The notes beneath the pieces are model-generated. The model was not told the origin of the DNA. It was given only the letters and a program-made list of their open reading frames with translations, and did not search any database. Position numbers and translations under genes: made by a program. A DNA stretch of 64,000 bases from Diphasiastrum complanatum (taxonomy: Eukaryota > Streptophyta > Lycopodiopsida > Lycopodiales > Lycopodiaceae): NCBI GenBank assembly GCA_029204225.1, contig CM055095.1:72713990-72777989 (forward strand), given 5' to 3'. Below, one piece after another: positions 8,901 to 23,900 of this stretch; position 1 is the first letter of the stretch, and each line of letters begins with the position of its first letter.

Positions 8901-11900
8901 GAGGCAATAGCATCAACAAGTTTTTGTCCCAAGGACTGGAGATATGCTGTCTTTTTTTTCAGAGTCACTTTGTGATATTCTCTTTGTTTCAAGGCTAGGG
9001 TGTGAGGAGAGTGGTATCTAGCGTATACAACTTGTTTATGCAATGAGAAGCACTCTGTATCATACCATTTGTTGTGAGTGCGTTTATTCGAAGGGAAGGT
9101 TTTCGAAGGATAGGTAGTATTGGTAGATTGCAAAAGAGACTGAGATAAAAAGATAGCTTGTTGGTCATCTGAGGAGGTGAAGGGGAAGTCTTGGAGAAAA
9201 GTAACTAGGGACTCGGTGTAAAGGGGGAAACCAGATGGAGAGAAAACCGGGCGATGGTGATGAGTGGGACGGTGTGTTGTGACTGTGGTACTATGATGAC
9301 CAAGGGATAGAAGTAGGAGGGAGTGATCCGAAATGGTAGGAGGTATGAAGAAATGGGATCAAAGCCGGTGACCCAATGAAGTAGTCAACAACACTATGTC
9401 CTCCTCCATGTGGGTGACAAGTAAAATGATATGACGAAGGCCAGTAAGGAAGGCCATTCAAAATGGTTAAGGAATGGGCCTCTGCTAAACCAATCAGCCG
9501 CTCTCCAAAGTGGGTAGTTGGAGTATCTGCATCCTGTGAGGTCCTGTCAAAGCCCATATCTAATGTGCAAACCTGTAGAAAATCACTCTCTGCATAAAAC
9601 TCAGCTTGCCTGATGCTCGTACGAGCATTAAAATCCGCTGCTAAAAGAATAAGGCCTTGCTGTGCAAAGCTGAATATATCATCTGAAAGAGCCTGGAAAG
9701 GGTCACCACCAAAATCTGCAAGAGATGATGTCTGTGGTGCAAAGTAACAAACTGCAAGAAAGAGGTTATGAGAAAGCCCCAAACAGTGACCAGAGAACTG
9801 AAACCAATTAAAGCGTGCAAATGGATCACTTTTGACCAGTTTAAAATGAGAACTGAAAACATCCTTGATGAGACAAGCAACACCACCAGAACCACGGAAG
9901 GTCTTCCCTCTCACAAAGGGCCGATGCGCTGAGTGCCAGGTGCAATCCTGTATGGATGGGAGCGGCCTATATAAGGATTCATGAGTCTCTGCTAACAAAA
10001 GGATATCACGTTTCAGCATGAAAGAATGGAAGTCACCTGCTGAAGAAGATGATAGTATGCCATTACAATTCCAAAAACCAATATGTAAAGGCTGAGGGGA
10101 TCTCGGGCTGCTTCTTTGCCCGAGAGCCCCAAATCCCTATTGAGAAATTTTATCAAAGAATTTTGGTTTGCCTTCAATGAAAACCACCCGCTGATTTCTT
10201 GCATTTGCATCCTGGATAATTTGTTTCCTGGCTTGCCATTGTGTGTGTGTAAGGTCATCATCCATAAAAAGAAAGGTCCCTTTCAATTTGGCTCTGAGGC
10301 GTAAAGCTGCGTTGCGGCTGTGCATAGAGCGAAACTTGATAAACAAGACATTAGTGTCAAACTTACTTCTCCAAGATGTATCAAATCCATCCGTGGTGTG
10401 TGTGAGCTTAGTTAAAAGGAGGTCTTTTGCCTCTTCAATGGGCTTATCCCCGTCGGGAATCCCCCTAACCCGGATATTAAAGGCTTTTTCAGCCCTTCTT
10501 TCTTGCTCGGAGAAGACATCTTCTAGTGTAGAATTCATAACTGCATGTTGAACCGAGCTTGAAGATTCGACCTTACCATCGTTTTTGAGACGCGCTGCCC
10601 ATGTCTTCGTTTCTTTCACTTGTTTCTCAAGGCTGGATATTTTGTTCGACGTCTCCTCCAATATATTCTTTTGAGGGATATGTTCCGCAATCCGTTAAGA
10701 TATACATTTTCTTGTTCAAGCTGCTCCATTCGCTTTTTAACCCCACAGAGATCCAAAATCAGCTTGCCGTTCTCAATTTCAAAGGAGTGTAATTGTCTTT
10801 TGAGTCCAATGATTTCTTGTCGAATAAAGTTGATGTCAAAAGCAAAGAGGCCTTCAGTAGGTTTGGAGGGGTTATAATCAATTGTGGGCAATTGATTAAC
10901 TGCAAATGTTTCGACAGCAGGGCGAGCAACCGTCTTGGATTCCGATGCAGATGCGGTGGACAGATCAGAAGTGGATGCGGTGGATACACTTAAAACAGGT
11001 ACGATGGCAGGAGCAGGTACCAAAAACCCAGATGTGAGGGACAGGGGGGTGTTTTCCGGGTCTCCCAAAGTAGGGCATGGTGGAGAGTGGGGGGAGTTAC
11101 CTCCCCCTCGTTTGTTGCGTGGAGCCATCGCTCCAGGGAATGTCAGTTGATAGCCAGAGAGAGGTCCGCTTTCCCAGATGACCGTTCCACAAAAGTGCGC
11201 TCCCCAGATGTCCGCTCAGATGTTCAGAACTCAGACAAGCTCTGTTCAGAGATCTGTGCCCCGCTCAGAAATCTATGCTGCCCTGCTCAGAGATCTGTGC
11301 CCTGCTCAGACTTGAAGCTCAGTAGCGATGGCTGCCTGGCTTCTGGTCTGTAACGGCCAGGTCTAAATTGTTGATGCTTCCAAATCAGAATGCGAGTCAC
11401 GCTGCAGTAAGTAAGCCACAAAAAGGAGGCAAGACAGCTGCACCAGCACTACGACCTGTGCAAGTATCAGCTGTTTGTTCTCGTCCAGATACTGCTTGGC
11501 AATGAACAAAGCCTTGCACTGCCAGCGTAAGTTGTCATATGAACATGCTGCATCTTGACCTGCGTCAGCACCAAATGAAAGAACCGACCGCCTTTGCAAT
11601 CACAAACCTCTGAAGCAGTGATCAGGCAAGGGCGAGGTGGAGCACCAGGGTTGGAGCGCGAGAGAGTTGGAGCATCATCGCGAGCTAGAGCATCGCGAGC
11701 TAGGAGCACCATCGCGAGCTAGGAGCACCAGAGAGAGAGAGAGAGAGAGAGAGAGAGAGAGAGAGAGAGAGAGAGAGAAAGAAAGAAAGAAAGATTTTAT
11801 TAATGTCCTTGAATACCCTAAGGTACATAGGACTAAGAAAAGGTACATGTCAAGTGTGCACATAGGAGCTTAAAGCTCAATCGTCTATAAAACTAAATAA

Positions 11901-20900: not shown

Positions 20901-23900
20901 GGGTGTGAGGTGGCCGATAGCGAAGGAGAGAAAGGAATGATCAGAGAGAGTGGTGGAAGATACATGAAAATCAGAGATGAGAGGTATGGAAGATGGTGAT
21001 CCCATGAGATAATCCACAACACTATGTCCACCACTGTGAGGGTGAAAAGTATAACTGCCGGATTTTGGCCAACAAGTTAGGCCATTGTAATGGCTAACTC
21101 ATGGGCCTCTCCAAACTGCAATAAATGCTCACCGTAAGGGGTAGTAGGTCCGAAGATGTCCTCTGAGATCCTGGTAACTCCCATGTCATCGTTGTCAAGG
21201 GCATGAACGCGGAGCTGGTCAGTGATGTCATAAAACTCTGACTGCCGTGAAGAGGTTTGGGCATTAAAATCCCCAGTGAGGAGAATATGCCCTCGCTCTG
21301 CGAATCTGATAATATCAGGGGCGATAAATCAAGGTAGGGTGAACCTGTGCCCTCAGCAAAGGACGAAGACTCTGGAGGAAAATAACATGCCGCCACAAAG
21401 AGGTCCCTGTCCAAACCAATATCCTGCCCAGCAATACGAATCCATGTATATTGTGCATGCTCGTCGTGTCTGATGAACTCGATGCTCGGATGAAGAGACT
21501 CTCTGTATAAGCATGCAACACCACCGGATCCACGACTGCGAGCTGATCTAGTCTCAAGTCTATATACGAAATCCCATCTGTATCCTGGAAAAATAGGTAA
21601 TCCTCTCTCCTGACTCTCATGAGTCTCCATAAAGAGCAATAAATCTCTGTTAGTGATGAAATCAATCAAGTCGCCAGCTATGGAAGATGAGTGTAAACCA
21701 TCACAGTTCCATACTCCAATCCGGAGATGGTGTGGATGGGGCCCCGGGGCACTCCCGAACCCGGGGACCCCAAATCCCTAGCACTGGGAGCTGCTAGGTG
21801 CGCTGTCAAGAAAACGCACTCGTCCATCTCGGTAAATGACTCGTCTGCCGGGCTGCCTGAAAGGCCTTACGCCTCTCCTCTACCTGGATATATGTGAGGT
21901 CGTCATCCATATAGATAGTGGTACCACGTAGCTTAGCTCTGCACCGCAAAGTATCTCGGCGACTCTCAAGGGAGGTGAAACGAATAATGAGTGTGGTTGC
22001 ATCTCTAGTGGTCCTCCATGCGGTGTCCAACCCCTCTGTCCTGTGCCCGAGAGTGATGTTGAGAAAGCGTTTGGCTTCAGCCAAAGCATCCTATGTATCC
22101 ATAACTCTGCGAACCCTAATATTGTGGGCTTTTTGGTCTCGAGATTTCTTTTCCGAGATGGTGGCTGAGATAACCGAGGAGATGGGAGCGCTTGGTTTGG
22201 TGCCCTTTTTCAAAACTAATGCTTAGGAAAGGGCCTCTTCATGTTGCTTCTCAATTTTGGTTTCTAGCTCCCGTAGCATGTTGGTGGTGGATTTCGAAGT
22301 TGTGGTCTGTTTGATCCCGATGGATTGTTGAGTGAGCAAACTTGGACTGCAATAACTTCTTCTCGTTGATCAAAGAAGTAACCGTTCCTTTCAGCTGCGA
22401 AATTTCATGCCACAAAAACTGGAAATCTGCCTTGAATTGATCAATTTGCCAAGATGAAAGAAGTTCAGTTGATTTAGAAGGCGTATACGGAATATTGGCT
22501 GTTGACTGTGGTGCTGGGAAGGAGGAAGAGTGAGCAATGGTTGGTGTGGGAAGAATAGGGTCAGAAGACGGAAGAGGAGCCGAATCAGGGATAGGAGCAG
22601 AATGGACAGATAATGGTGAAAGTGGGTAAGGTGACATGTCAGCATGCCGTGCTACCTGCGTGGCAGGTAGCACTGTCATATCGGTGGACAACATCGAGGG
22701 GGAGAGAGAGCAGCCATCAGAGAGGGGGGTGGGAGTTGTAGCAGGAGAGGGAGATGGGTCATCGAGGGGGTGAGGTGAAGTGGCAGCGAGGGGGGGGCTG
22801 AGGGATCAGCGAGGGGGTGAGGTGAGGGGGCAGCGAGAGGGTGGGGTTGGAGTGGCAGCGAGAGGGGGTGAGGAGGGTGGAGTGGTCAGCGAGGGGGGTG
22901 GGTGAGGGGGTGGCAGCTATAGGAGAGGGATCAGTGAGGGGGAGATCGGGGAGGTCAGCGAGGGGGGGGATGGAGCAGCGAGGGGGGGGATGGAGCAGCG
23001 AGGGGGGAAGGAGAAGGAGCAGCGAAGGGGGAAGGGGAAGGGGCAGCGAGGGGGGGAGGTGAATGGTGAGCGAGGGGGGTGAGTGAGGAGGTGGCAGGGG
23101 ACCTTGAGGACCTACGAGCAGGGGCGCGAGGAGGAGGGGCCATGGTGTTGAGAGAGGGCGGACCAGGGCAGGGCAGGGCCTAGGACATGGCAGCAGCCAT
23201 CGCTGAACACCATGGAACCTCCCAATCTCAATAGCTAGTTGGTGAGAAGACACCCTGAGCTGTCCCAATGTGAGGCAATGTGATAGTCCTGAATCCAAGT
23301 AACGTGGCATGACTGGGGTTCCTGATACATCAGCTCCAAAAAGTGGGTCCGGTAGAAATCTGGCTTAACCCCTAACTGGCTACTCCAAGTCCGCTCTAAA
23401 TATGCTCGATAGAGAAATCGTTTGATATACTGATGGGTACCTAAAAGAAGCTCTGTTATGGAGATACCAAACGACTCAAGTAGGAGGTGAGGTGCCTGAG
23501 AGAACCATGATAATAGAGAGAGAGAGAGAGAGAGAGAGAGAGAGAGAGAGAGAGAGAGAGAGAGAGAGAGAGAGAGAGAGAGTATGTGTTTGTGACGTGG
23601 TGGCATGTATCATCTCTTAGGCTAAGTTTGACTCGCAATCTCGCCGTCTAGAGAAGAAGGATGTGATATGCGTTTGTGAGGTTGGAGGGTCCTTGGAGTG
23701 ATGTGAATCATGCAATTGTCGATGCCAAGAGTGATGTGCAGCTCACATCTGTCTAGTGTAAAGTCCTCTGGCGTTGACCTTTGTGCTTTAAGGGAATGAT
23801 GGAGTCTTGCACTAAGTTTGACTCACGATCTTGCTTTCTAGAGAAGAAGGATGTGATATGCATTTGTGACATGGTGGCATGTATCATCTCTTAGGCGAAC

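Follow-up and report, generated by a model that had tools for sequence, protein, structure and literature searches.

A conserved in-frame UAG followed by a covarying hairpin as a candidate programmed readthrough site between ORF1 and ORF2 of a multicopy clubmoss LINE

The stretch of DNA analyzed here, hereafter the window, comprises 64,000 nucleotides (nt) of the clubmoss Diphasiastrum complanatum (GenBank assembly GCA_029204225.1, contig CM055095.1, forward-strand positions 72,713,990 to 72,777,989) and carries at least five pieces of a long interspersed nuclear element (LINE), all on the minus strand, as recognized by tblastn among the window copies. Copy A (about 11215-7126), copy B' (18072-15442), and copy C (23364-18521) retain the junction between the first and second open reading frames (ORF1 and ORF2) that is the subject of this report, and a 5'-truncated copy (14524-12487) and an ORF1 relic (35532-35187) are without it. 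Pfam searches identified reverse transcriptase (RT; PF00078) at 12560-14524 (E value, 1.4e-31) and at 8001-8576 (E value, 7.6e-19), and an endonuclease (EN) of the apurinic/apyrimidinic type lies N-terminal to the RT, with a PF03372 match in copy C (25.3 bits) that barely exceeds the 24.5-bit cut-off; PF03372 also matches the related proteins P0001 and P0003. Judged by these Pfam matches to both RT and EN, the element is a LINE. ORF1, which presumably resembles ORF1 of L1, gave weak coiled-coil-like Pfam matches, all below the cut-offs. An Rfam search of the window and a PDB sequence search with the EN of copy A returned no matches.

In all three copies, ORF1 ends in UAG-GGATTTG (10139-10130, 17226-17217, and 21780-21771), and the frame then runs on to a W-N-C-(N/D)-G motif without another stop or an in-frame AUG. 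Both points had been made in an initial sequence-only reading of the window, and both were borne out. In copy A, the C-terminal part of the ORF1 frame (10137-10694, a stop-to-stop frame recognized by tblastn to other ORF1 copies) ends in ...FFDKISQ before the UAG (10137-10139). A hairpin whose stem spans 13 positions, one of them a C.U mismatch (10096-10130), follows after a 6-nt spacer, a 21-codon linker and the EN continue in the ORF1 frame (9291-10136, with a weak Exo_endo_phos_2 match below the cut-off), and the RT region (7126-9067; Pfam and tblastn) is frameshifted. The ORF1 frame of copy B' (17308-18072) is interrupted by a TGA upstream of the junction; it is followed by the UAG (17224-17226), a hairpin in which C replaces G in the outer pairs (17184-17217), a segment of linker and EN start that contains one stop (16756-17223), and RT fragments found by tblastn (15442-16485). 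Copy C consists of an ORF1 C-terminal region (21872-22276; tblastn and an O1_B match), the UAG (21778-21780), a hairpin of 11 bp with one bulge (21738-21771), a 22-codon linker and EN in the ORF1 frame (21094-21777) with PF03372 matching from W-N-C onward, and a broken RT region detected by tblastn (18521-20674). RNAfold reproduced the hairpins that had been described for copies A and C, but that of copy B', described as 9 bp, has about 10 pairs including a G-U.

Few other parts of the element fold as stably as the 57 nt after the UAG. Equally stable windows elsewhere in the element numbered 0/1327 for copy A, 0/1576 for copy C, and 3/824 for copy B', and at three further A-type loci they numbered 0/1084, 0/1084, and 4/1084. 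When the comparison was made with dinucleotide shuffles, none of 300 was as stable as the junction of copy A, and 19/300 were as stable as that of copy C. Among genomic loci the strongest were L052, L060, L130, and L140 (0/300 each), L020 (2/300), and L011 (4/300), followed by L127, L040, L004, L103, L101, and L114 (9, 12, 17, 18, 24, and 27 of 300, respectively). As a separate observation, GGAGC or GGAGU forms part of the apical loop in the majority of A1, B, and C junctions (e.g., window positions 10117-10109 on the minus strand), but this motif is missing from the GAAGUC-type subgroup of A; it could reflect a coding constraint or a loop contact.

The junction was followed through the 1.74-Gb assembly, in which TAGGGATTTG occurs 5164 times compared with 2422 times for the reversed control; LINE junctions made up 10 of the first 50 TAGGGATTTG sites on contig C1. 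For the sample proper, 130 copies were picked by their EN protein (using queries starting past the hairpin, plus one distant relative) and not by the junction. They comprised 30 top matches and 20 copies hand-chosen for variety from subfamily A, 20 hand-chosen for variety from subfamily B, 20 from subfamily C with a choice favoring long open frames, 20 chosen by hand with the distant query, and 20 sampled at approximate intervals along a list; every EN match list gave the best 150 of 6660 to 10069 candidates. Unplaced contigs contribute near-identical duplicates, such that the 126 junctions used represent 81 distinct 48-mers. The ORF1 tail, one stop, the linker, and the EN share a single frame in 109/130 copies (74/90 in one batch, with 68 UAG and 6 UAA, and 35/40 in the other, all UAG), and the random frame relations that would have spoken against readthrough were not seen. 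The stop is UAG in 103 of these 109 kept junctions, UAA in 6, and UGA in none, and the next base is G in 106, A in 2, and C in 1 (72 G and 2 A among the first 74; 34 G and 1 C among the other 35). Conservation of GGAUUU after the stop, as proposed from the three window copies, did not hold up: it is a subfamily trait, present in 72/109, with GAAGUC (9), GGAUUA (7), GGAUUC (4), and others including GGAGCA, GGACUC, and GAAAUU elsewhere. What the subfamilies have in common is the UAG, the following G, and a hairpin at 6 nt. Linker length is 20 codons (some of A), 21 codons (A and some of B), or 22 codons (B and C) and therefore changes between subfamilies by whole codons.

The 21 copies not counted among the kept junctions were sorted by inspection. 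Ten had lost it (L071, L076, L077, L082, L083, L092, L112, L135, L144, and L156), seven were frameshifted at it (L073, L106, L113, L124, L151, L154, and L155), and two carried a sense codon in place of the stop (TAC in L064 and TCG in L079); L107 has an additional stop within the linker, and the ORF1 tail of L060 is not in frame. In L112 (contig C1075), a deletion took the UAG and the hairpin and joined ORF1 to the EN in frame, leaving an open frame of 1561 codons.

None of the 109 kept junctions has an in-frame AUG between the stop and W-N-C, which extends to the family the lack of an obvious start codon noted in the window. The first in-frame ATG past the stop is at codon 39 in 30/47 A junctions and at codon 49 in 7/53 C junctions, both of which lie behind W-N-C and inside the EN. 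No in-frame ATG occurs within the available sequence in 22/24 B junctions, and the remaining junctions mostly have none within available sequence that often spans just ~150 nt. Because the PF03372 profile sets in at W-N-C (profile position 3 in copy C, and likewise in P0001), initiation at a later AUG would remove the start of the EN. It is conceivable that ribosomes end at the UAG and restart nearby at a non-AUG codon with the aid of the downstream structure, much as in SART1, where a stop-start overlap is accompanied by structure downstream of the site (PMC5972666). A near-cognate AUU does lie three codons ahead of the W in the majority of A and C copies, and a UUG lies near there in part of B. 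However, no near-cognate codon was found at one position common to the A, B, and C subfamilies, and reinitiation has no need for a linker in the ORF1 frame, yet the linker keeps that frame. Together with the missing AUG, this makes reinitiation an unlikely account of the junction.

The stem was compared among 19 representatives, hand-picked after sequence inspection and aligned with MAFFT, with all 81 distinct junctions serving as a control for that choice. The stem aligned without gaps and with its arms in one register, so that the stems of different copies are not completely different in sequence as had been claimed from the window, although the accompanying claim that pairing is kept was upheld. 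Over the eight inner pairs (columns 15 to 22 with columns 32 to 39), 90.7% of positions are paired, compared with 17.9 to 65.6% in slid registers, and RNAalifold returned the same helix with three additional outer pairs. Both-sided changes occur in 7/8 inner pairs, a number reached by 2/500 shuffles, and no shuffle among 500 matched the 19 representatives in either paired share or covariation score. Because shuffles ignore relatedness, unpaired columns were also simulated on a tree derived from the flanks. The 19 representatives show 5 compensatory branch events (simulated mean, 0.435; maximum, 3 in 400 simulations) and 137/152 paired cells (mean, 108.8; maximum, 136). The 81 distinct 48-mers likewise show 5 events (mean, 1.21; maximum, 4 in 150 simulations), and their 542/646 paired cells (mean, 448; maximum, 558) were reached by 3/150 simulations. 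At column pair 18/36, C-G changed to U-A on two separate occasions, once in A (L060) and once in C (L100). Within subfamily C, there are 3 both-sided pairs, as many as in 7/500 shuffles. The stem covaries between subfamilies, with modest covariation within C and none within A and B, and the excess of paired substitutions anticipated in the sequence-only reading is accordingly found in the former comparison and not in the two latter subfamilies.

We propose that the junction is probably a programmed, type III-like UAG readthrough site of a multicopy D. complanatum LINE. A single frame, a UAG, the lack of an in-frame AUG before the EN, a fixed spacing, whole-codon changes in linker length, and a covarying stem are directly established; decoding of the UAG, its rate, and the need for a fusion product would follow from this reading of the sequence. 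Ribosomes would translate ORF1 and terminate mostly at the UAG, and the UAG-G context with a hairpin 6 nt downstream would lead a minority of them to decode the UAG as an amino acid and to continue in the same frame through a linker of 20 to 22 residues into the EN and RT. ORF2 would then exist solely as the C-terminal part of a minor ORF1-ORF2 fusion, and unfused ORF1 would outnumber that fusion, just as gammaretroviral Gag outnumbers Gag-Pol. This one reading covers the shared frame, the whole-codon linker changes, the absent AUG, the UAG-G, and the close structure with its compensatory changes. The candidate put forward from the window alone has thus been strengthened, since in other copies neither random frames, nor a conserved ORF2 start codon, nor a lack of paired change between subfamilies was found. 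Plants are not known to possess ADAR, and ADAR-type editing was set aside on that ground.

Several observations weigh against the readthrough interpretation. Dinucleotide shuffles were not beaten at L119 (35/300), L160 (42), L139 (48), L100 (59), L050 (79), L111 (82), L110 (99), and L118 (125) or in window copy B' (128), and because these include several representatives of B and C, folding stability alone is no proof for those subfamilies. Within subfamilies A and B, one both-sided pair each was found (361/500 and 397/500 shuffles as high, respectively), and further pair types show no excess even across subfamilies (493/500 shuffles as high). Inspection by eye revealed no pseudoknot common to all subfamilies, the loops of A and C offering bases that could pair, and no purine octamer follows the stop. 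Among ten windows around matches to a diverged, old D-type copy, four have an in-frame UAG and an ORF1-like tail (L182, L185, L186, and L190), and in L183 (GAG) and L187 (CAG), which may represent decay or a fused-frame subfamily, a sense codon occupies the stop position; the other four gave no clear assignment. Stems within the shuffled range in some B and C copies and the missing excess within A or B would both be expected if a master element had by accident possessed an in-frame UAG next to a G/C-rich stretch and passed them by descent to its related copies. We regard such an inherited accident as very improbable, as the compensatory changes exceed those of the tree-based unpaired simulations (0/400 and 0/150 reach the observed number), and the UAG and the frame are kept among subfamilies that differ in the next hexamer and in the letters of the stem.

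Covariation demonstrates structure and not function, and the hairpin might therefore have another job, such as ORF1 protein binding, RNA stability, or control of reverse transcription, with ORF2 made from another mRNA that arises from an internal promoter or from splicing that skips the UAG. A caution of this kind comes from yeast: the Candida albicans element Tca2 also has an in-frame stop between two retroelement genes and a predicted downstream structure, and its predicted stop suppression was unsupported in a reporter test (PMC7175516). Tca2, unlike the clubmoss LINE, is a long terminal repeat (LTR) element, and no covariation evidence for it was seen. A hairpin with an unrelated role would leave unexplained the kept frame, the 6-nt spacing from the UAG in all sampled subfamilies, and the AUG-free linker, and we consider it a doubtful explanation of the junction.

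Comparison with published systems places the putative readthrough site nearest to type III signals, defined by a UAG, an adjacent G or a purine octamer, and a 3' structure that commonly begins about 8 nt past the stop (PMC3542737, PMC5382211), compared with 6 nt in the clubmoss LINE. The junctions match this class in their UAG, the next-base G, and a covarying computed hairpin close downstream. The CARYYA of type I signals (UAG-CARYYA) was not seen among the 109 kept junctions, and the absence of UGA from them likewise sets aside type II (UGA-CUA/CGG). The stop of the soybean element SIRE1, discussed below, reportedly has a context of the CARYYA type. Moloney murine leukemia virus gag-pol and the carmo- and tombusviruses share with the clubmoss LINE the UAG, the following G, the nearby 3' structure, and an upstream product in the polymerase frame (PMC5009743, PMC3542737, PMC5382211). 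Unlike the Moloney virus and other type III signals, the clubmoss element is a LINE and has a simple bulged hairpin 6 nt past the stop, with no pseudoknot common to all subfamilies and no purine octamer found. SART1 is similarly a two-ORF LINE with structure downstream of a stop (PMC5972666), but unlike SART1 and mammalian L1, which use reinitiation, the clubmoss LINE lacks an AUG overlapping or close to the stop and has ORF2 in the ORF1 frame. SIRE1 is, like the clubmoss LINE, a plant retroelement, and a title cited in PMC7385966 attributes stop codon suppression to it; it differs in being an LTR element with an envelope-like product. Zorro3 of Candida, a LINE of the L1 superfamily, also has two ORFs, but they are separated by several stops, and the first ATG of ORF2 is needed for retrotransposition (PMC1965478, PMC7175516).

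In the available portions of the open-licence literature (including PMC5009743, PMC5972666, PMC7385966, PMC2734521, PMC2861651, PMC1965478, PMC7175516, and PMC11203168; subscription papers and Repbase notes were outside the scope), no LINE with the UAG and hairpin device proposed here was found, and because of that scope the novelty is provisional. We lean, with somewhat less assurance than for the junction itself, toward the broader proposal that a large clubmoss LINE lineage makes its EN and RT only as a minor fusion by hairpin-stimulated UAG readthrough, that this mode arose independently in non-LTR elements, and that it was kept through subfamily turnovers by compensatory change in the stem. 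The control of low ORF2 output in LINEs is understood for few elements, chiefly those using reinitiation. If the proposal is true, the retroviral mode of dosing Gag relative to Pol arose in non-LTR elements too, and a plant-derived readthrough signal exists in thousands of natural variants. Annotation tools would miss or truncate such an ORF2, because no start codon precedes the EN.

Longer stretches and wider relatives were also considered. In ~1.25 kb upstream of the junction in two C copies, the ORF1 frame is fully open in one and has a single stop far upstream in the other; three further long stretches had no intact ORF1 at the junction (two without the exact motif and one 5' truncated). 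Stop-free ORF2 frames reaching about 1.2 kb of codons occur in several C copies, and we therefore infer that the family was active rather recently. Relatives of the RT were found in Adiantum, Taxus, and Klebsormidium and relatives of ORF1 in Diphasiastrum (including P0123); a scan of viral contigs with P0003 found no relative. Among relatives that include an EN, the predicted Met lies 13 to 19 residues ahead of W-N-C in P0001, P0003, P0127, and P0128 and just ahead of it in P0126. In P0129, P0130, and P0131, full-length ORF2 relatives from metagenomes, the predicted start Met lies behind W-N-C, and an ORF2 start codon may therefore be lacking there too. One D-type copy among L186, L187, and L183 carries UAG-GCAUUU.

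Where LINE pieces of the window end, or close to those points, there are (GA)n arrays (6313-6380, 11731-11778, 18283-18326, 23516-23581, 28798-28907, and 36112-36167), which read as (CT)n in the sense orientation of the LINE. Sense-strand (CT)8 or longer occurs in 7/130 junction windows and (GA)8 in 0/130, and in the C copies L082, L083, and L092, the truncation falls right at such a (CT)n array. These observations suggest insertion of the LINE into CT microsatellites in one orientation, with the density of arrays by itself being little higher than at other loci. A Copia element lies on the plus strand at 54746-57564, and its gag gene contains an in-frame UAG within TAGGGATATG (55238); this one-mismatch match to the junction motif was rejected as unrelated. 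A stretch with 98% identity is present in two Copia copies, at 53252-53934 in one case and at 57577-58260 in the other.

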